DNA of 64,000 bases from Desulfovibrio aminophilus (GTDB taxonomy: Bacteria; Desulfobacterota; Desulfovibrionia; Desulfovibrionales; Desulfovibrionaceae): the NCBI RefSeq assembly GCF_023660105.1, contig NZ_JAMHGA010000017.1, positions 62,001 through 126,000 on the forward strand, in the 5' to 3' direction. The notes under the pieces are model-generated. The model was not told the DNA's origin and ran no database searches. It saw nothing but the letters and a program-made list of their open reading frames with translations. The translations under genes and the position numbers were made by a program. Below are positions 16,791 through 27,009 of this stretch, piece by piece; position 1 is the stretch's first letter, and each line of letters begins with the position of its first letter.

Positions 16791-18938
16791 ATGCAGCACG
16801 CGAAGAACCTCAAGGAATACCGCGCCGAGCTGCGCGAGGCCCTGGGCGACGAGTTCCTGCGCCAGGCCATGGACAAGTTCGCCCGCTTCTACCCCGGAGC
16901 CCGCGCCCGGGCCTTCGCGGGCATGGATGTGGACGGCCTCATTCACGAGATCGCGGAGGCCAAGGACAAGGCCGCCGCGCGCATGGACGAGCTCTATGAG
17001 GCCTTCAAGGCCAAGGCCGAGGCCGCCGGGGTCGTGGTGCACCTGGCGCGCACGGCCCGCGAGGCCAACGAGATCATCGCGGCCATCGCCAAGGAGAACG
17101 AGGTCAAGCGCATCGTCAAGTCCAAGTCCATGACCGCCGAGGAGATCCACCTCAACCACCATCTGGAGGCCGAGGGCTACGAGGTCACGGAGACGGACCT
17201 GGGCGAGTGGATCATCCAGCTGCGCGGCGAGGGCCCGACCCACATGGTCATGCCCGCCATCCACCTCTCGCGCTACCAGGTGGCCGACCTGTTCAGCGAG
17301 GTCACCCACCAGAAGCAGGAGGTGGACATCGAGAAGCTCGTCAAGGTGGCCCGCCGCGAGCTCCGGCCCCGCTACATCGAGGCCGAGATGGGCATTTCCG
17401 GGGCGAACATGGCCGTGGTGGAGACCGGGGCCATCGGCATCGTGACCAACGAGGGCAACGCCCGCCTGGTGACCACCCTGCCGCGCGTGCACGTGGCCCT
17501 CATGGGCCTGGACAAGCTCACCCCGACCCTGGCCGAGGGCCTGCGCGTGCTCCGCGTGCTACCGCGCAACGCCACGGGCCAGGCCATCTCCTCCTACGTC
17601 ACCTGGATCAACGGCCGCAACGAGTGCGCCTCCTCTCCGGACGGGAAGAAGATCATGCACATCGTCTTCCTGGACAACGGCCGCTCGGCCCTGGCCCGCG
17701 ACCCGCTCTTCTCCCAGGTGCTGCGCTGCGTGCGCTGCGGGGCCTGCGCCAACGTCTGCCCGGTGTACCGCCTGGTGGGCGGCCACCGCTACGGACACAT
17801 CTACATCGGGGCCATCGGCCTGATCCTGACCTACTTCTTCCACGGTCGGGACAAGGCCAAGAACCTGGTCCAGAACTGCATCAACTGCGGGGCCTGCAAG
17901 GCGGTCTGCGCGGCGGGCATCGACCTGCCCATGCTCATCAAGGAGATCCACGCCCGCATCCTGGACGAGGAGGGGCACTCCGCGCCGAGCACGCTCCTGG
18001 CCGCCGTGCTCAAGAACCGCAAGCTGTTCCACACCCTGCTGCGTTCGGCCAAGCTGGCCCAGAAGCCCCTGGCCTCGGGCGGCTACATCCGCCACCTGCC
18101 CATGCTCCTGGCCAAGGACCAGGGTTTCCGGACCCTGCCGGCCATCGCGGCCAAGCCCTTCCGCGACCTCTGGCCGCGCATCCGGCCCGAGACCAAGTCC
18201 CCGCGCTACCGCGTGGGCCTGTTCTCCGGCTGCGTGCAGGACTTCGTCTACCCCGAGCAGTGCGTGGCCGCGGTGAACGTGGTGGCTGGCAAGGGCGCGG
18301 CCCTGGACTTCCCCCTGGACCAGTCCTGCTGCGGCCTGCCCGTGGTCATGATGGGCGAGATCGAGGCGGCGCGCGAGGTGGCCCGGCAGAACATCCGGGC
18401 CCTGGACCCCGGCAAGTACGATTACATCCTCACGCTCTGCGCCTCCTGCGCCTCGCACCTCAAGCACGGCTACCTGAAGCTCCTGGGCGACGACCCGGCC
18501 TGGGCCGTGAAGGTCCGCCAGTTCGCGGACAAGGTCATCGACTTCAGCTCCTTCGCCCACGACGTGCTCAAGCTCGGGCCCGAGGACTTCCGCAAGGACG
18601 GCGGCAGCGTGACCTACCACGCGCCCTGCCACCTCTGCCGGGGCCTGGGCGTGAAGGACGCCCCCCGCGACTTGCTGCGCGACGCGGGCCTGGACTATAA
18701 GCCCTCCGAGGAAGAGGAGGTCTGCTGCGGCTTCGGCGGCACCTTCTCGATGAAGTTCCCGGAGCTTTCGGCCGAGCTTCTGGCCAAGAAGCTGGAGCAC
18801 GCCGAGGCCACCGGGGCGCAGACCCTGGTCACGGACTGTCCCGGCTGCGTCATGCAGCTGCGCGGCGGCCTGGAAAAGAAGGGCTCGTCCATGCGCGTCA
18901 AGCACATGGCCGAAATCCTGGCCCAGCAGATCAAGTAG
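16791..18938 (+). CDS. lutB: LutB-LutA fusion: LUD domain, ferredoxin domain and CCG domains
   Basis: 715-residue iron-sulfur protein. Residues about 60-290 are a LUD domain (VETGAIGIVTNEGNARL). Residues about 310-375 hold two 4Fe-4S motifs (CVRCGACANVCP from 313, CINCGACKAVC from 363). The remainder has two cysteine-rich CCG domains (SCCGLPVVMMGE and VCCGFGGTFSMK). In most bacteria the LUD-ferredoxin part (LutB/LldF) and the CCG part (LutA/LldE) are separate genes; here they are one chain, as in other Desulfovibrio. With LutC it should form the L-lactate dehydrogenase. Sits three bases after lutC. Confidence 0.92.
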   Translation: MQHAKNLKEYRAELREALGDEFLRQAMDKFARFYPGARARAFAGMDVDGLIHEIAEAKDKAAARMDELYEAFKAKAEAAGVVVHLARTAREANEIIAAIAKENEVKRIVKSKSMTAEEIHLNHHLEAEGYEVTETDLGEWIIQLRGEGPTHMVMPAIHLSRYQVADLFSEVTHQKQEVDIEKLVKVARRELRPRYIEAEMGISGANMAVVETGAIGIVTNEGNARLVTTLPRVHVALMGLDKLTPTLAEGLRVLRVLPRNATGQAISSYVTWINGRNECASSPDGKKIMHIVFLDNGRSALARDPLFSQVLRCVRCGACANVCPVYRLVGGHRYGHIYIGAIGLILTYFFHGRDKAKNLVQNCINCGACKAVCAAGIDLPMLIKEIHARILDEEGHSAPSTLLAAVLKNRKLFHTLLRSAKLAQKPLASGGYIRHLPMLLAKDQGFRTLPAIAAKPFRDLWPRIRPETKSPRYRVGLFSGCVQDFVYPEQCVAAVNVVAGKGAALDFPLDQSCCGLPVVMMGEIEAAREVARQNIRALDPGKYDYILTLCASCASHLKHGYLKLLGDDPAWAVKVRQFADKVIDFSSFAHDVLKLGPEDFRKDGGSVTYHAPCHLCRGLGVKDAPRDLLRDAGLDYKPSEEEEVCCGFGGTFSMKFPELSAELLAKKLEHAEATGAQTLVTDCPGCVMQLRGGLEKKGSSMRVKHMAEILAQQIK

Positions 18939-18950
18939 GAGGTTCGTCAG

Positions 18951-19973
18951 GTGAAGGAAGTCCGGGCGCATGCCCGTGAACTGATGAAGGGTTTCTGCCG
19001 GGTCTGCCCGGTGTGCGACGGCCGCGCCTGCGCCGGGGAGGTCCCCGGCATGGGCGGCCTGGGCACGGGGCGGGCGTTCATGAACAACGTCTCGGCCCTG
19101 GCCTCGGTGCGGCTGAACATGCGGCTCATCCACGAGGCCGCGCAGCCGGACACCTCGCTGGAGCTCCTGGGACTGAAACTCTCCCTGCCCGTGCTGGCCG
19201 CGCCCATCGGCGGCGTGTCCTTCAACATGGGCGGCGGCGTGTCCGAGGCCGACTACATCCGGGCCGTGGTCCTGGGCTGCAAGGAGGCCGGGAGCCTCGG
19301 CTGCACCGGCGACGGCGTGCCCGACGTGATCCACAAGGAGGCCTTCGCCGCGGTGCGCGAGGCGGGCGGCCACGGCATCCCGTTCATCAAGCCCTGGGAG
19401 GACGAGGAGCTTTACCGCAAGCTCGAGGCCGCCGTGGACTCCGGGGCCAAGATCCTCGGCATGGACATCGACGCCGCCGGGCTGGTCACGTTGCGCAAGA
19501 TGGGCCGCCCGGTCTCGCCCAAGAGCCCGGAGAAGCTGCGCGAGATCATCGAGTGGAGCCCCGTGCCCTTCGTGCTCAAGGGCATCATGACCGCCGACGA
19601 GGCCAAGATGGCCCGCGACGTCGGCGCCGCGGGCATCGTGGTCTCCAACCACGGAGGCCGCGTCCTGGATCACACCCCGGGCGTGGCCGAGGTCCTGGCC
19701 GAGGTGGCCGGGTCCGTGCGCGGCGAGATCGCGATCCTGGCCGACGGCGGCGTGCGCACCGGCGAGGACGTGCTCAAGATGCTCGCCCTGGGGGCCCAGG
19801 CCGTGCTCATCGGGCGGCCCTTCAGCGTGGCCGCCGTGGGCGGGCTCAAGGACGGCGTGGCCGCCTACGTGGAGCAGCTGCGCGGCGAGCTGGTCCGCTC
19901 CATGGTCCTTACCGGCTGCGCCGACCTGGCGGCCGTGGACGGCCGCATCCTCTTCAACGGAGGCCGTCGATGA
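18951..19973 (+). CDS. FMN-dependent alpha-hydroxyacid dehydrogenase (LldD-like, short form)
   Basis: 340-residue FMN enzyme of the L-lactate dehydrogenase/glycolate oxidase family with a GTG start behind AGGAGG. It carries the family's FMN and substrate segments: PIGGVSFNMGGG, VPFVLKGIMTADEA, the active-site His in VSNHGGRVLDHTPG, and the phosphate-binding DGGVRTGEDVLKMLALGAQ. It is shorter than E. coli LldD (about 400), and its N-terminus has a cysteine cluster (FCRVCPVCDGRACAGE), seen in many anaerobe homologues, which may bind metal or serve redox control. A third possible lactate-oxidising enzyme in the same operon. The true substrate is not settled. Confidence 0.88.
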   Translation: MKEVRAHARELMKGFCRVCPVCDGRACAGEVPGMGGLGTGRAFMNNVSALASVRLNMRLIHEAAQPDTSLELLGLKLSLPVLAAPIGGVSFNMGGGVSEADYIRAVVLGCKEAGSLGCTGDGVPDVIHKEAFAAVREAGGHGIPFIKPWEDEELYRKLEAAVDSGAKILGMDIDAAGLVTLRKMGRPVSPKSPEKLREIIEWSPVPFVLKGIMTADEAKMARDVGAAGIVVSNHGGRVLDHTPGVAEVLAEVAGSVRGEIAILADGGVRTGEDVLKMLALGAQAVLIGRPFSVAAVGGLKDGVAAYVEQLRGELVRSMVLTGCADLAAVDGRILFNGGRR

Positions 19974-20956: not shown

Positions 20957-22282
20957 ATGTTCTGGGTCGCAACGGCCATCTTCGTCGTGGCCTACGCCAT
21001 CATCGTCTCCGAGAAAATCCACAAGACCAAGGTCGCGCTGTTCGGCGCGGCGCTCACCCTCATCACCAAGGTCCTCAGCCAACACGAGGCCCTGCACGAC
21101 ATCGACCTGGGCGTGGACTGGAACGTGATCTTCCTGCTCATCTCCATGATGATCATCGTGAACATCATGACCAAGACGGGCGTGTTCCAGTACGTGGCCA
21201 TCAAGGCCGCCAAGGTGGGCAAGGGCAACCCCTTCACCATCATGAGCATCTTCGCCGTGGTCACGGCCGTGTCCTCGGCCTTCCTGGACAACGTGACCAC
21301 CGTGCTCCTGCTGGCGCCCGTGACCCTGCTCATCGCCAACGAGCTGGAAGTGGACCCGATCCCCTTCCTCATCACCGAGGCCCTGGCCTCGAACATCGGC
21401 GGCACGGCCACCCTCATCGGCGATCCGCCGAACATCATGATCGCCTCCAAGGCGGGCTTCGACTTCATGGACTTCATCGTCCACCTGAGCCCGGCCATCG
21501 TGATCATCATGGCGGTCTGGATGCTCATCTGGAAGGTGGTCTTCGGCAAGCGCCTGCATGTGCGCGAGGAGCTCAAGGCCCGGGTCATGGCCATGAACGA
21601 GAACGAGCTCATCAAGGACCCGGTGCTGCTCAAGAAGTCCGGCGCTGTGCTGGGCCTGACGATCCTGGGTTTCATCCTGCACGGCTTCTTCCACTATGAG
21701 CCCGCCACCGTGGCCCTCATGGGCGCGGCCACGCTCCTGTTCATCTCCGGCGAGGAGCCGCACCACGCCCTGGCCGAGGTGGAATGGCCGACGATCTTCT
21801 TCTTCATCGGCCTGTTCATCATCATCGGCGGCACGGTGAAGGTTGGGCTCATCGAGCTGCTCTCCAAGGAGATGATCGCCCTGACCCATCCCACCCAGGA
21901 GAGCATGTTCATGCTCTCCATGGTCATGGTCTGGTTCTCGGGCATCGCCTCGGCCATCGTGGACAACATCCCCTTCGTGGCCACCATGAACCCCCTGCTG
22001 GTGAGCACGGCGGGCACGGTGATGGGAAGCACGGATGTGAGCGCCCTGCAGAGCGCCACCATGCTGCCGGTGTGGTGGGCCCTGGCCCTGGGCGCCTGCC
22101 TGGGCGGCAACGGCACGGCCATCGGCGCCTCGGCCAACGTCATCGTGGTGGGCATCTCCGAGAAGGCCGGACACAAGATCACCTTCGTCCGTTTCCTGAA
22201 GTACGGCGTGCCCGTGACCCTGCTGACCATCGCCATGTCCATGGTCTACATCTGGGTGCGCTATTACGTCCTCAAGGTCTGA
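20957..22282 (+). CDS. ArsB/NhaD superfamily ion transporter (SLC13-like)
   Basis: 441-residue inner-membrane protein with about 11-12 hydrophobic segments. It carries the superfamily signatures, each half containing a loop with conserved Asn/Asp: FLDNVTTVLLLAPVTLLIA, IGGTATLIGDPPNIMIA in the first half and IVDNIPFVATMNPLL, LGACLGGNGTAIGASANV in the second. The family covers Na+/H+ antiporters (NhaD), ArsB and citrate/dicarboxylate carriers; an Na+/H+ antiporter is my best guess. Ribosome site GGAGG before ATG. Probably co-transcribed with the CBS gene; ends at a strong terminator. Confidence 0.85.
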   Translation: MFWVATAIFVVAYAIIVSEKIHKTKVALFGAALTLITKVLSQHEALHDIDLGVDWNVIFLLISMMIIVNIMTKTGVFQYVAIKAAKVGKGNPFTIMSIFAVVTAVSSAFLDNVTTVLLLAPVTLLIANELEVDPIPFLITEALASNIGGTATLIGDPPNIMIASKAGFDFMDFIVHLSPAIVIIMAVWMLIWKVVFGKRLHVREELKARVMAMNENELIKDPVLLKKSGAVLGLTILGFILHGFFHYEPATVALMGAATLLFISGEEPHHALAEVEWPTIFFFIGLFIIIGGTVKVGLIELLSKEMIALTHPTQESMFMLSMVMVWFSGIASAIVDNIPFVATMNPLLVSTAGTVMGSTDVSALQSATMLPVWWALALGACLGGNGTAIGASANVIVVGISEKAGHKITFVRFLKYGVPVTLLTIAMSMVYIWVRYYVLKV

Positions 22283-22394: not shown

Positions 22395-25037
22395 TCAGCG
22401 GATCATGTTCGGGTGGTGGGCCGGGACGTCCATGGCCTCGCGGTGGCAGACCCGGCAGTTTTTCCGGCCGCCGATGGTCGCGGCCTCGCCCTGGTACTGG
22501 AGCGGCTGGACGTTGTCGCGGTCGTCGCCATAGGCGTTGAGCGCCGGGTATTCCGCGTGCGGGCTGTTGTGGCAGGCCGCACACGGCAGGGCCTCCATGT
22601 CGTCCTTGCGCATGCGGTAGAGGCCCTTGGCGTCGGCGGTCCAGGTGTTGAAGGCGTTGGCCTTCTCCAGGTCCGGCGCGGTGTAGTCCTTGTGGCAGGT
22701 CAGGCAATCGGGCTCCTGGAACCAGGGGGTGCGGCCCTTGATCTCGTCCCCGCCGGCCACGCCGCGGGGCTGGAGCAGGCCCAGGAGCTTGGCCGCCGAG
22801 CGCTTGCCCTCCTGGCCCTTGAGCAGGCTGATGGCGTGGTCCTCGATGTAGCCGTGGCACTGCACGCAGGTGATCCCGATGGTTCCATGCACGCCGCGCA
22901 GGCAGCGGGTGGGGCCGTCGGGGCGGTTGGGATGGCAGGATTGGCAGGTCTCCTCGGCGCGGCCGGTGAGGTGCGCGGCGTGGAAGCCGTGCAGGGCCGC
23001 GGGCAGGTTCATGAGGCCCGGGTAGTTGATGGGGTCGCCCTGGGAGCCGAGCACCGGGTCGGGGTGGCAGCTCTGGCAGAGGCGGGGCTTGCCGGCCTTG
23101 GCGTCGGCCAGGAGCGTGGTGCCGTTCATGCGGTCGTGGACCTTGAGCACGTCCTCGGCGGCCAGATCCGAGATGCCCGCCACGCCGTCCACCTTCCAGG
23201 GGCCGCCATGGCAGTTGCGGCAGCCCATCTCCGTGGACGTGGGGGCCACGACCTCGGTCTTGGCCAGGAGCTTGCCGCTGGCCGTGTCGCGCGCCTCCAC
23301 GGTGAACAGCGGGTAGGGATTGTAGCCGTCCTGGTCGGGATAGGGCACCACCGGGATGAGGTCCGCGCCGAAGAGGCCGGACGCGGGGTCAAGCTTCATG
23401 TGCCCGGACAGGCCCTCGCCGGCCACGCCTACGTTCTCGGGCAGATCCTTGCCGAACAGCGACTTGGCGTGCTTCCAGAACTCGACATGTTTGGCGGGAT
23501 ACTCGAAGCCGGGCTCCACGGCGTAGGTCAGGGTCACGCCCTCGGTGACCACCCGCGGGCCGGGGCCGCGCCGGATGAGCACGGCGCGCAGGTCGTTGGC
23601 CGGGGGCAGGAGGATCCAGTAGGGATCCGAGTCCGAGATGCAGTGCATGCCGAGGGTGTTCCAGGTCAGCAGCACGTATTCATCGGTGTTCGCGTCGAAG
23701 GGCGGGGTGGGCACGGGCAGGTCGGCCGGGTCCACGGCCTTGTCGCCGGTGTCCTTCTTGCCGTGCAGGCCCTCGACGATGAAGGCGGCCAGGACCTGGC
23801 GCTCCTCCACGCTCCCGGCGAGGGGCGGCATGTAGGTGTTCACCTTGCCGATGCCGGTGAGGAAGGAGTCCATGCCGAAGAGGCCGAACTTGGCGGTCTT
23901 GGGCAGGATATCGTTCATGGGGCCGCCCACCGAGTGGCAGGACGAGCATTGCAGGTCGAAGAGCACCCGGCCCGCCGCCAGGCGGTTCTCCGGGGTGAGC
24001 GTGACGCCGGCCCATTTGGCCGTGCGCAGCAGGCCCTGGGCCTCCACCGGGGCCAGGTAGGCCGGGCGCAGGGAGTTGGAGTAGGTATGGTGCGGGATGA
24101 GCCAGGGCTTGCGTCCGGCCTCGCGGGTGAACTCGAAGCCGCCGAAGGCCACCAGGCCCGTGAGGACCACCACCAGGGCCAGCTTGCTGCCCACGGCCCG
24201 GGGCAGGCGCAGGGCCAGGACCAGCGCCCCCAGGGAAGCCATGCCGCCCGCCACCAGGAAGACCTTGATGAACGAGCCCGCGCGGCCGTACTTGGCGGCC
24301 ATCAAGGCCTGGGCCTCGGCGGGCAGGGCGGTGATGTTCCACCAGCCGGCGGGCACGGCCAGCAGGAAGCAGATCAGGGTCCACTTGGCGCAGGAGCGCA
24401 CCAGGGCCAGCCGGGTGGGTTCGTCCTGCACGCGGGTGGCGGTGACGAAGCCGAACATCCCGGCGATCATGCCGGTGAGGAAGGTGCGGAAGACCGTGGA
24501 GGGCCAGAAGCCGGGATTGAAGAAGCCGCTCCAGAAGGAGTGGTTCTGGGCCCAGGCCCCGGTGTCGAGCATGAAGGTCAGGATGCCGTTGATGATGAAC
24601 AGCGAGGCGTAGCCCGCGCCGAAATAGATCCAGCCCACGCGGATGTGGGTCTTCCGGTCCATGCGGTCGAATCCGTAATAGTAGACCAGCAGGGCCGCGA
24701 TCTCGATGACGAAGAAGACCCATTCCGTGGCCCAGCCCCAGACGAAGACGTGGATCAGGGTCGAGGTGGCCTGGGGCGAGAGCAGGGCGATGGTGAACCA
24801 GATGCCCACGCCGGACACGCCGCCGAAGACCATGGTGAGCAGGAGGAAGAACTTGGCGTGCTTCTTGACGTAGGCCAGCATGTGCGGGTTGTTCTCACGG
24901 GCGGCGCGGGTCTCCACCAGGGGCAGGAAGAGGCCGCCGCCCACCGCGAAGTGGGCCACGTAGACATGCAGCACGGCGATCAGCGCGATCCAGAATCCGC
25001 CGCCCAGGGCGGTGAGTTGCCAATAGGGGTATTCCAT
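22395..25037 (-). CDS. CydA-like membrane domain fused to an eight-haem cytochrome c
   Basis: 880-residue membrane-anchored multihaem protein. The first 330 residues or so have about eight hydrophobic segments. The opening (LHVYVAHFAVGGGLFLPLVE, His24 and His29) aligns by eye with the first helix of cytochrome bd subunit I, whose His19 binds haem b595. Next comes a class-I-like cytochrome c domain: CSSCH at 364-368, and a possible Met ligand in YMPPLAGS. From residue 606 on there are seven more CxxCH motifs (CRNCH, CQSCH twice, CVQCH, CLTCH, CAACH, CRVCH). The second membrane subunit precedes it by one base. Likely role: transfer of electrons between the membrane and periplasmic c-type haems. 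No CydB gene is nearby. Donor and acceptor unknown. Confidence 0.82.
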   Translation of the reverse strand: MEYPYWQLTALGGGFWIALIAVLHVYVAHFAVGGGLFLPLVETRAARENNPHMLAYVKKHAKFFLLLTMVFGGVSGVGIWFTIALLSPQATSTLIHVFVWGWATEWVFFVIEIAALLVYYYGFDRMDRKTHIRVGWIYFGAGYASLFIINGILTFMLDTGAWAQNHSFWSGFFNPGFWPSTVFRTFLTGMIAGMFGFVTATRVQDEPTRLALVRSCAKWTLICFLLAVPAGWWNITALPAEAQALMAAKYGRAGSFIKVFLVAGGMASLGALVLALRLPRAVGSKLALVVVLTGLVAFGGFEFTREAGRKPWLIPHHTYSNSLRPAYLAPVEAQGLLRTAKWAGVTLTPENRLAAGRVLFDLQCSSCHSVGGPMNDILPKTAKFGLFGMDSFLTGIGKVNTYMPPLAGSVEERQVLAAFIVEGLHGKKDTGDKAVDPADLPVPTPPFDANTDEYVLLTWNTLGMHCISDSDPYWILLPPANDLRAVLIRRGPGPRVVTEGVTLTYAVEPGFEYPAKHVEFWKHAKSLFGKDLPENVGVAGEGLSGHMKLDPASGLFGADLIPVVPYPDQDGYNPYPLFTVEARDTASGKLLAKTEVVAPTSTEMGCRNCHGGPWKVDGVAGISDLAAEDVLKVHDRMNGTTLLADAKAGKPRLCQSCHPDPVLGSQGDPINYPGLMNLPAALHGFHAAHLTGRAEETCQSCHPNRPDGPTRCLRGVHGTIGITCVQCHGYIEDHAISLLKGQEGKRSAAKLLGLLQPRGVAGGDEIKGRTPWFQEPDCLTCHKDYTAPDLEKANAFNTWTADAKGLYRMRKDDMEALPCAACHNSPHAEYPALNAYGDDRDNVQPLQYQGEAATIGGRKNCRVCHREAMDVPAHHPNMIR

Positions 25038-25038
25038 C

Positions 25039-26079
25039 TCAGGACTCCTTCACGGACCGCAGGTATTGGCGCACGAGCCAGGCCACCAGGGGTATGGCCA
25101 GGAGGAACACGGCCAGGAAGAGGATCATGGGCGAATACTCGGCGGTCACGGCCAGGGTGCGGATGTCCTGGTAGGGCGAGAGCAGGATGCCCCGCAGGCG
25201 GTCGCGGACCAGGGCCATGCCCGCCACGGTGAGCACGGTCCAGAGCAGGGCGCCCGGCACGTTGCCCTTGAACGCGGACATCAGCGCGGCGGCGGCCAGG
25301 ACCAGGGCTCCGGCCAGGAGCAGGGCCGAGGTCGCGTTGCCGCCCAGGAACTGTCGCAGCGCGGGCTCGGGCAGCGAGAGCAGGAACCAGACCCCGAAGA
25401 CGACCTGGGCCAGGGTGGCCCGGGTGAACCAGTACAGGCCCGTGCGCACGTATTCCTGGTCGCCCTTGGCGCGGCCCAGCAGGGCCACGGCCAGGCCGCC
25501 CACGGCCAGGGCGGCGACCATGAAGTGCAGCCAGCGGGGCAGGAGCATGGGATCGCCCAGGTTGAGCAGGGAGCCCGCGCGGTTGTCGAACCAGGCGGTC
25601 CAGCGGACCGGGTCGAGCATGAGGGTCATGTTGTTGGAGAAGAGGAACCCGACGAACACGAGCAGGGCCAGGGGCGCGGCGACGAGCAGGGGCCGCGCGC
25701 CGCTCGAGTCGAAGCGGAAGTCGTAGATGTACAGGCCGTAGTAGGCGGCCATGACCAGGATGATGACCGAGAGCCACCATGCGGCCATGATCACGGAACT
25801 GGTGTAGACGAAGTTGCCGTAGAGCACCTGCAGGAAGAGCAGGGGGGCGACGCCCAGGTTGATGGTCAGGGCCAGGGCCGTGGGCATCTTGGTCGAGAGG
25901 TCCTTGGCCAGGGCCGTGTTCGAGCCGCGCAGGTGCGTCGCCAGGGCGATGGCCGCGCCTCCCACCACGGCGTTCATGAGCAGGATGTGGGCCACGAAGG
26001 TGACGTGCAGGAGCGCGTCGAACCAGCCCCAGGGCACCGGGATGGTGTCCGGCGCGGGAATCAGCGATCGAGGGTCCAT
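25039..26079 (-). CDS. Polytopic membrane partner of the CydA-like multihaem cytochrome
   Basis: 346-residue protein with about nine hydrophobic segments and no haem c motif. The ATG at 26079 follows a GAGGAGGAGGAG tract; longer in-frame extensions would run through the divergent panK gene and are not credible. The first helix (FDALLHVTFVAHILLMNAVV, His25 and His31) has the same LH-x4/5-AH pattern as the fused cytochrome downstream, so both look like members of the cytochrome bd subunit I superfamily. It probably forms a heterodimeric integral membrane module with the downstream protein; the two are one base apart. Confidence 0.75.
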   Translation of the reverse strand: MDPRSLIPAPDTIPVPWGWFDALLHVTFVAHILLMNAVVGGAAIALATHLRGSNTALAKDLSTKMPTALALTINLGVAPLLFLQVLYGNFVYTSSVIMAAWWLSVIILVMAAYYGLYIYDFRFDSSGARPLLVAAPLALLVFVGFLFSNNMTLMLDPVRWTAWFDNRAGSLLNLGDPMLLPRWLHFMVAALAVGGLAVALLGRAKGDQEYVRTGLYWFTRATLAQVVFGVWFLLSLPEPALRQFLGGNATSALLLAGALVLAAAALMSAFKGNVPGALLWTVLTVAGMALVRDRLRGILLSPYQDIRTLAVTAEYSPMILFLAVFLLAIPLVAWLVRQYLRSVKES

Positions 26080-26116: not shown

Positions 26117-26169
26117 TTGTCCCGCGGAATCTCGGTATGATTTTCCGCGCGGCGGCGGTCCGTCCGTTC

Positions 26170-26198
26170 TTGCGGGGCGTCGGAACCAATGACATACT
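26170..26198 (+). promoter_or_regulatory. Possible sigma-70 promoter of coaX
   Basis: TTGCGG, 17-base spacer, CATACT. Each hexamer matches consensus at four of six positions. Start of transcription would be near 26205, about 35 bases before the start codon. Confidence 0.35.
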
Positions 26199-26238
26199 CT
26201 TCCCTGTCGCGCGCATCAAGCTTTCGGAGTTGAAATTC

Positions 26239-27009
26239 ATGGAGAAAAACATTCTCGTCCTGGACGTGGGCAACACCCAGGCCAAGGCCCGGCCCGTCGG
26301 CCCCGATGGATTCCTTGGCCCGGAGGAGCGCGTTTCCGGGCACAAGGTGTTCGACGCCGAAGCCTGGAGCGGCTGGCTGGAACGGGCGGCCGCCGGAAGC
26401 GGCCCCGCCGCGCTCGTCTTCGCCTCCGTGGTCCCGCCCGCCGATCCCCTGATCCGCGAGGCCGCCGCCGGCCTGGGCTGGACCGCCCTGGCCGTGCCCG
26501 GGGACCTGCCCGTGCCCATGGAGAACCGCTACCAGAAGCCCTGGGAGGTGGGAGCGGACCGCCTGGTGGGCTCCTATGCCGCGCGGCGGCGTTTTCCCGG
26601 GGAGGAGCGGCTCATCGTGGTGGATTTCGGCACGGCCACCACCTTCGACTGCATCCGGGGCGACGCGCTCCTGGGCGGGCTCATCTGCCCGGGCCTGTTG
26701 TCCTCGGCCCGCTCCCTGCACGTGGAGACGGCCAAGCTGCCCCTGCCCACCCTGGAGCTTTCCTCGGACCGGCTGCGCATCGACGTGGGCACCATGGAGA
26801 GCCTGAACCAGGGCCTGCTCTTCGGCGCTGCGGCCCAGGTGGAGGGCTTGGCGTCCCGGCTGGCCGAGGTCATGGGCGGCCCGGCCTTCGTGGCCGCCAC
26901 CGGCGGCCTGGCCCCCAGCGTGGCCCGGGTCTGCCCGGCCATCCGGGCCGTGTTGCCGGACCTCATGTTCGAGGGCCTCGCGGCCCTGTACCGGCGCCGC
27001 GCCGGTTGA
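26239..27009 (+). CDS. coaX: Type III pantothenate kinase
   Basis: 256-residue cytoplasmic enzyme, ATP + pantothenate to 4'-phosphopantothenate, the first step of CoA synthesis. Family marks: phosphate-binding LVLDVGNTQAK at the N-terminus, ENRYQKPWEVGADRLVG (pantothenate-site region), VVDFGTATTFDCI and LLGGLICPGL, ending in a helical FEGLAALYRR. The start MEKNILVL at 26239 has GGAG ten bases upstream; an extension to 26137 would include the promoter candidate. Stands alone between the divergent cytochrome operon and the ECF genes. Confidence 0.93.
   Translation: MEKNILVLDVGNTQAKARPVGPDGFLGPEERVSGHKVFDAEAWSGWLERAAAGSGPAALVFASVVPPADPLIREAAAGLGWTALAVPGDLPVPMENRYQKPWEVGADRLVGSYAARRRFPGEERLIVVDFGTATTFDCIRGDALLGGLICPGLLSSARSLHVETAKLPLPTLELSSDRLRIDVGTMESLNQGLLFGAAAQVEGLASRLAEVMGGPAFVAATGGLAPSVARVCPAIRAVLPDLMFEGLAALYRRRAG

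Follow-up and report, generated by a model that had tools for sequence, protein, structure and literature searches.

A CydA-like protein with eight c-type haem motifs and its CydA-like partner in Desulfovibrio aminophilus: a candidate cytochrome c-fed oxygen reductase of the bd superfamily

A pair of adjacent genes, P0001 and P0002, was analysed in a stretch of 64,000 nucleotides of the Desulfovibrio aminophilus genome (contig NZ_JAMHGA010000017.1, positions 62,001 to 126,000; hereafter the window). P0001 joins a membrane domain of the CydA fold to eight c-type haem motifs, and P0002 is a second CydA-like protein that carries no haem c. We consider it probable that the pair constitutes a two-subunit cytochrome c:O2 oxidoreductase of the bd superfamily that lacks the known quinol site. 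In favour of O2 reduction fed by c-type electrons are the conserved residues of the putative O2 site and the CydAB and flavodiiron-type genes that adjoin the pair in some relatives.

Fold and domains of P0001

Both reading frames are open at the coordinates given in the initial annotation (made from the sequence alone), and only one base separates the stop codon of P0002, the first gene, from the ATG of P0001. AlphaFold models of P0001 (predicted local distance difference test, pLDDT, 87.5; predicted template modelling score, pTM, 0.83, with local confidence of 64 at residues 241–250) and P0002 (pLDDT 92.2, pTM 0.89) were compared with known structures. All 13 Foldseek matches of P0001 in the PDB at E ≤ 0.001 were bd subunits; P0002 gave none at this threshold, and its first 17 rows, from E 1.5e-3, were likewise all bd subunits. 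VIA-align superposed P0001 on 7oy2_C (CydA) with Z 29.7 over 314 residues at 3.2 Å, and P0002 on 7ose_A (CydA) with Z 28.6 over 329 residues at 3.6 Å. An NrfD-like fold was rejected, as the best chain of that kind, ActC, reached Z 17.4 and 18.7, respectively. Profile comparison gave P0001 a probability of 96.3% to CydA and 1.0% to CydB, and matched P0001 to P0002 at 96.4%. Both subunits are thus CydA-like, as first suggested, and on the models both have the CydA fold.

P0001 matched PF01654 (CydA; 39.3 bits, cut-off 26.2, best stretch 17–229) and PF13442 (class-I cytochrome c; 28.1 bits, cut-off 27, residues 352–420), and its tail matched PF14522 (cytochrome c7). The CydA match is weak beside that of the canonical CydA of the same genome (37.7 versus 575.7 bits). 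NCBIfam matches to NrfH, DmsE-type proteins, QrcA and others all fell far under their cut-offs and were discarded. CXXCH motifs lie at residues 364, 606, 654, 698, 724, 778, 819 and 861, and the description of the protein as a CydA-like domain followed by one class-I haem c and a seven-haem tail was confirmed. The tail also holds eight further invariant His (H634, H683, H686, H717, H734, H827, H874 and H875), which would be enough for bis-His ligation of its seven haems.

In the model, eight membrane helices precede the haem c domains, which places these domains on the N-terminal side of the membrane. The numbers of Lys and Arg per loop, 2–3 in loops assigned to the cytoplasm and 0–2 in the short periplasmic ones, fit a periplasmic N-terminus. 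Canonical CydA has a ninth helix; since the c domains of P0001 follow helix 8, cytochrome c appears to replace it. Only 15 residues lie between helices 6 and 7 (206–236 and 252–274), leaving no room for a Q-loop.

To judge conservation, we aligned 68 domains consisting of the CydA-like part and its haem c (CydA-c domains), excluding matches weaker than 1e-20: 45 from octahaem proteins, 3 from split ones, 15 from single-haem forms, 4 from single-haem forms whose partner has two haems, and 1 other. All 68 share H24, E105, E112, R184, E302, R305, E306, R309, P311, M403 and the CXXCH at 364 without exception, and this invariance of the site residues extends to relatives without the seven-haem tail. 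By profile alignment H24 corresponds to the helix-1 His, and E105 and E112 to the helix-3 Glu pair, of canonical CydA; the alignment stops at residue 230, short of the b558 ligand Met393. H19, E99, E107, H186, Met393, E445 and R448 are numbered as in Escherichia coli CydA.

The partner subunit P0002

P0002 has no CXXCH, in agreement with the initial annotation, and showed no family match in Pfam or NCBIfam at E ≤ 1 and only chance-level matches to PDB sequences. Its H31 aligns with H24 of P0001 in the profile comparison, so the shared helix-1 His noticed at the outset is real; the other helix-1 His, H25, is unconserved. Seven residues (H31, G40, Q84, H185, G229, M288 and R292) are invariant among 66 partner proteins. 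Trp and Leu replace the helix-3 Glu pair. Opposite E306 lies Asp 293; across the 66 partners this position is Asp or Glu in 46, and it is Glu in each of the 15 that accompany the single-haem form. P0002 is therefore not wholly stripped of the site. The expectation of b-haem ligands in both subunits was borne out in part: P0001 has counterparts of H19, E99, E107, E445 and R448 and none of H186, and P0002 has those of H19 and of the helix-5 H186, lacks the Glu pair and has Asp in place of E445.

The identification of P0002 as a CydB was rejected on sequence profiles, hhalign giving 2.0% probability to 58 CydB sequences versus 91.9% to 61 CydA sequences, with no match to PF02322. The structural comparison is less clear-cut, since the highest Foldseek template modelling scores came from two CydB chains (0.69 and 0.71), with CydA at 0.59–0.66 and other CydB chains at 0.53–0.62; by VIA-align a CydA chain was best for all 10 bd entries listed. 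Loop charges of P0002 are less decisive for its topology than those of P0001. The early remark that there is no CydB holds for the surroundings of the pair; a canonical CydA and CydB are encoded elsewhere in the genome, on contig C15.

Relatives and phylogeny

A pattern scan of genome contigs yielded 51 loci, mostly in metagenome-assembled genomes; such scans can miss distant relatives. Each of 38 full-length aligned rows, that of the window included, has eight CXXCH. The octahaem fusion was found in Desulfovibrio, in further sulfate reducers of the delta type (Desulfobacterota), in Bacteroidota, where the complete genome of Draconibacterium orientale carries it, in Spirochaetota and in KSB1. 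In 42 of the 51 loci the gene immediately upstream codes for a P0002 homologue. Seven of the other nine are fragments or have too little upstream DNA, and the last two (L040, L041) are haem-part relatives standing alone. At four loci (L047–L050) the fusion is split into a CydA-c gene of 435–472 amino acids and a multihaem gene of 594–646, with Desulfovibrio sp. A2 and Nitratidesulfovibrio oxamicus among the hosts. A further variant (L122, L123, L125 and L127) has one haem c in the CydA-c protein and two CXXCH in the partner.

Within the family of the window's genome, P0001 was matched at E ≤ 1e-30 in 71 of 119 genomes, some of the matches covering just one of the two parts, haem or CydA. Among 198 genomes of the phylum, 36 had the CydA-c domain, with the tail or without (E < 1e-80), and 37 the P0002 family (E < 1e-18). 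All 36 genomes with the domain also had the P0002 family, and 36 of the 37 P0002 genomes had the domain; in the odd one (G082) the P0002 match lies 119 bases from the start of a contig. These cut-offs were chosen after the gap was seen, and the count excludes 21 genomes with weak CydA-c matches (E 4.3e-11 or weaker; 16 canonical CydA, 5 other CydA-like) and G099, with a P0002 match of 1.8e-5. The conservation of the pair, its motifs and its residues across phyla is beyond chance, and P0001 and P0002 may form a physical complex.

In a quick tree built from 76 CydA domains, with canonical CydA as the root (25 of 73 inner branches weak), the single-haem forms make up one starred group, separate from the octahaem forms. 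The octahaem label changes four times on the tree as drawn, at least two of the changes being forced by starred branches, versus 24.3 in shuffles. Rows from Bacteroidota, Spirochaetota and KSB1 join some rows of the window's phylum (support 94, not starred), and this grouping suggests that the octahaem unit was transferred between phyla.

Relatives of the haem part were also found on their own. The D. aminophilus genome itself has a stand-alone eight-haem relative on contig C21 (L166:5918-7609), about 52% identical to the haem part of P0001; a PAS/histidine kinase gene adjoins it. Two relatives of the tail with ten haems (L171:4055-5950 and L172:4638-6434) adjoin molybdopterin oxidoreductase genes, with CoxI close by in L172. 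By eye these oxidoreductases resemble formate dehydrogenase, an assignment that Pfam does not make. Such neighbours fit, indirectly, a haem part that may take electrons from periplasmic dehydrogenases.

Gene neighbourhoods in relatives

The fullest neighbourhood was seen at L010, where genes for canonical CydA, CydB, cytochrome c3, FMN reductase/LMWPc, an ODP-flavodoxin (flavodiiron type) and a HEAT-repeat protein run in one direction and are followed by the pair. The HEAT-repeat gene (L010:6075-6770) lies just before the pair, and a fragment of it is found in L025; together with the ODP-flavodoxin gene it recurs in L008, L023, L026 and L174. L023 also has a C-terminal piece of CydB nearby, L004 a canonical CydA, and L043, from a Bacteroidales genome, both CydA and CydB.

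CydA or CydB thus lies in the flank of four of 49 loci (L004, L010, L023 and L043), where 0.14–0.27 would be expected; the two stand-alone haem proteins were excluded, and the expectation assumes one or two copies per 3.5 Mb over 480,125 bases of flank. As L010 and L023 share one branch of modest support, three events were counted, and the chance of at least three is roughly 0.0004–0.003.

Neighbouring open reading frames were scanned around 28 fused relatives, with nine near-duplicates excluded, frames under 100 amino acids dropped and genes called as longest-frame guesses. Of 177 frames chosen, 172 entered the broad scans and five were scanned separately. The broad scans list the 25 most frequent of 92 and of 120 families, most with one or two members, so that a rare theme could be hidden.

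Predicted function and alternatives

In the mechanism that we propose, the seven-haem tail would receive electrons from small cytochromes of the periplasm, for instance c3 supplied by H2 or formate. It would pass them through the class-I haem c to the CydA domain, where a two-haem, b595/d-like site would reduce O2 with cytoplasmic protons. In place of CydB the enzyme would have P0002, a CydA paralogue that lacks the helix-3 Glu pair and may hold one b haem. In anaerobes such an enzyme could serve for O2 scavenging and perhaps for some charge separation. The haem types, the electron donor, the direction of transfer, O2 as the substrate, proton uptake and the physical association of the subunits are what we infer from the comparisons above.

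Several observations weigh against this assignment. No O2-related gene adjoins the pair in the window itself, and no common theme emerged when 172 proteins encoded near the pair in 28 relatives were scanned; the excess of CydA and CydB neighbours was spotted first and tested afterwards. One genome (G161) has both genes on one contig 1.8 Mb apart: its P0002 homologue (L174) stands with CydA, CydB, ODP-flavodoxin and HEAT genes and without P0001, and the octahaem gene is L136. The b558 His is missing from P0001, whose helix 177–200 contains no His and aligns F183 with the canonical one. The EAGRKPW segment was equated with GRQPW on the strength of the motif itself, a weak stretch found by HMMER (i-Evalue 14) and the extent of the fold alignment; the confidence of the model falls to 58 at residues 311–320.

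The initial annotation had proposed, besides O2 reduction with c-type input, that electrons move from quinol to periplasmic or extracellular acceptors or the reverse; the former is now favoured, and no positive evidence was obtained for either of the latter. As a quinol:cytochrome c oxidoreductase, or its reverse, the pair would bind menaquinol and a b haem in P0002 and send electrons from the CydA domain through the octahaem chain to those acceptors, with no O2 chemistry. The invariant H31, H185 and M288 of P0002 could indeed hold a b haem, P0002 could bind quinone, and the tail bears a weak likeness to domains II/IV of MtrC/MtrF (PF22113, 28.5 bits, under the cut-off of 30). We nevertheless regard this role as unlikely, given that P0001 has an invariant His/Glu/Arg set at the O2 site, that there is no room for a Q-loop, that CydAB and flavodiiron-type genes are neighbours in some relatives, and that neither a porin nor a multihaem cytochrome appears among the 25 most frequent neighbour families in either broad scan.

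A bd-fold reductase for nitric oxide (NO), peroxide or another small oxidant instead of O2 is a slightly poorer prospect. Flavodiiron-type proteins can act on NO too, and bd enzymes handle both NO and peroxide; on the other hand, the residues are the same as in O2 enzymes and canonical CydAB lies near in some relatives. Sequence does not separate these substrates from O2. It is very improbable that the CydA-like domain serves as an anchor, structural or sensory, and that redox activity resides in the octahaem part only. Relatives of that part without a CydA domain do exist, one in the same genome, yet all 68 CydA-c domains, many of them tailless, have the same ligand and acid residues, and the pairing with P0002 is consistent.

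Comparison with known oxidases

The canonical bd quinol oxidase (CydAB, qOR) resembles the proposed cytochrome c:O2 oxidoreductase in the CydA fold, the helix-1 His, the helix-3 Glu pair and a GRQPW-like motif with its Glu and Arg. It differs in that P0001/P0002 has no CydB, no room for a Q-loop and no b558 His in P0001, carries haem c domains after helix 8 and has a second CydA paralogue as partner.

The OR-C family comprises CydA-like proteins that bear haem c, and the single-haem relatives found here (15, and 4 with a two-haem partner) may belong to it; by description, P0001 differs in its seven-haem tail. This family is named in the available text of PMC10839748. According to the parts of PMC10839748 and PMC12342949 that were available, some bd-like oxidases do not oxidise quinol and are proposed to be fed by cytochrome c and to pair two CydA paralogues. 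The OR-N type CydAA' of Nitrospinota and Nitrospirales shares with our pair the proposed combination of CydA paralogues and the proposed cytochrome c donor, and differs in that no octahaem fusion is described in those parts (PMC10839748, PMC12342949), the comparison being by description only. Bd-like terminal oxidase complexes in Manganitrophaceae are mentioned in the available portion of PMC9040806. The earlier view that the pair resembles no standard Desulfovibrio complex known is therefore fair, with the reservation that bd-like enzymes lacking a quinol site and pairing CydA paralogues have been described (PMC10839748).

An octahaem CydA fusion was not found in the literature searched, mainly titles and abstract openings, and the complex is not mentioned in the available parts of PMC7618691, PMC10732223, PMC5492636, PMC7726332, PMC4383621 and PMC6964889. 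As cytochrome c-fed bd-like enzymes and paired CydA paralogues are already described, it is the octahaem fusion that looks new, as a variant.

Two other systems deserve comparison. A CydA-like family of the same phylum (L114–L121, 614–731 amino acids) likewise has a CydA-like domain and small cytochrome c genes nearby, but its protein lacks CXXCH and is matched weakly or not at all by the CydA-c profile. The cc(o/b)o3 oxidase of Desulfovibrio vulgaris is a haem-copper enzyme, with a fold unrelated to bd. Like the proposed enzyme, it is a membrane-bound O2 reductase found in a sulfate reducer and receives electrons from a cytochrome (c553), as stated in the part of PMC4383621 available.

If the assignment is true, anaerobes would possess a bd-type oxidase that bypasses the quinone pool and links periplasmic oxidation of H2 or formate directly to O2 removal. 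In D. vulgaris Hildenborough at 0.02% O2, the mutant without either of the known membrane oxidases did not fare worse than the single mutants, and several of its traits resembled those of the wild type; in the available part of that study its authors call the balancing mechanism unknown. Relatives of the complex in split form are found in Desulfovibrio sp. A2 and N. oxamicus. We tentatively suggest, as a possibility worth entertaining, that the unit is a quinol-independent bd-fold O2 reductase of strict anaerobes, which would receive low-potential electrons from the periplasmic multihaem network, has spread among Desulfobacterota, Bacteroidota and Spirochaetota, and might be part of the mechanism that offsets the loss of both known oxidases in D. 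vulgaris.

Location in the window

Coordinates of the features are given in Table 1. The genes flanking the pair, for a CitMHS-type transporter (20957-22282) and a type III pantothenate kinase (26137-27009), are on the opposite strand, and the pair therefore stands alone within the window.

Table 1. Features of the P0001/P0002 pair, in window positions
Feature	Position	Strand	Description and evidence
P0002	25039-26079	minus	346 aa (amino acids); 9-helix CydA-fold partner subunit, no haem c
H31 of P0002, helix-1 His	25987..25989	minus	66/66 partners; aligned to H24 and canonical CydA
H185 of P0002, aligned with the His ligand of b558 (E. coli H186)	25525..25527	minus	Invariant in 66/66; profile alignment to canonical CydA
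M288 of P0002, possible haem ligand	25216..25218	minus	Invariant in 66/66
P0001	22395-25037	minus	880 aa; CydA-fold domain and eight c-type haem motifs
CydA-fold membrane domain, residues 1-322	24072..25037	minus	8 membrane helices in model; PF01654; fold alignment
H24, counterpart of helix-1 haem ligand His (E. coli H19)	24966..24968	minus	68/68 CydA-c domains; aligned with canonical CydA
EAGRKPW, residues 306-312, probable counterpart of E445/GRQPW	24102..24122	minus	E306, R309, P311 in 68/68; weak HMMER stretch versus 5doq_A; fold-alignment span
Class-I cytochrome c domain, residues 349-424	23766..23993	minus	CXXCH at 364, Met 403; PF13442
Beta domain and seven-haem tail, residues 453-880	22398..23681	minus	Seven CXXCH, eight further invariant His

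Elsewhere in the window, at 16791-19973, two plus-strand genes resemble, by eye, those for a LUD/4Fe-4S protein and an alpha-hydroxyacid dehydrogenase, possibly for lactate use.

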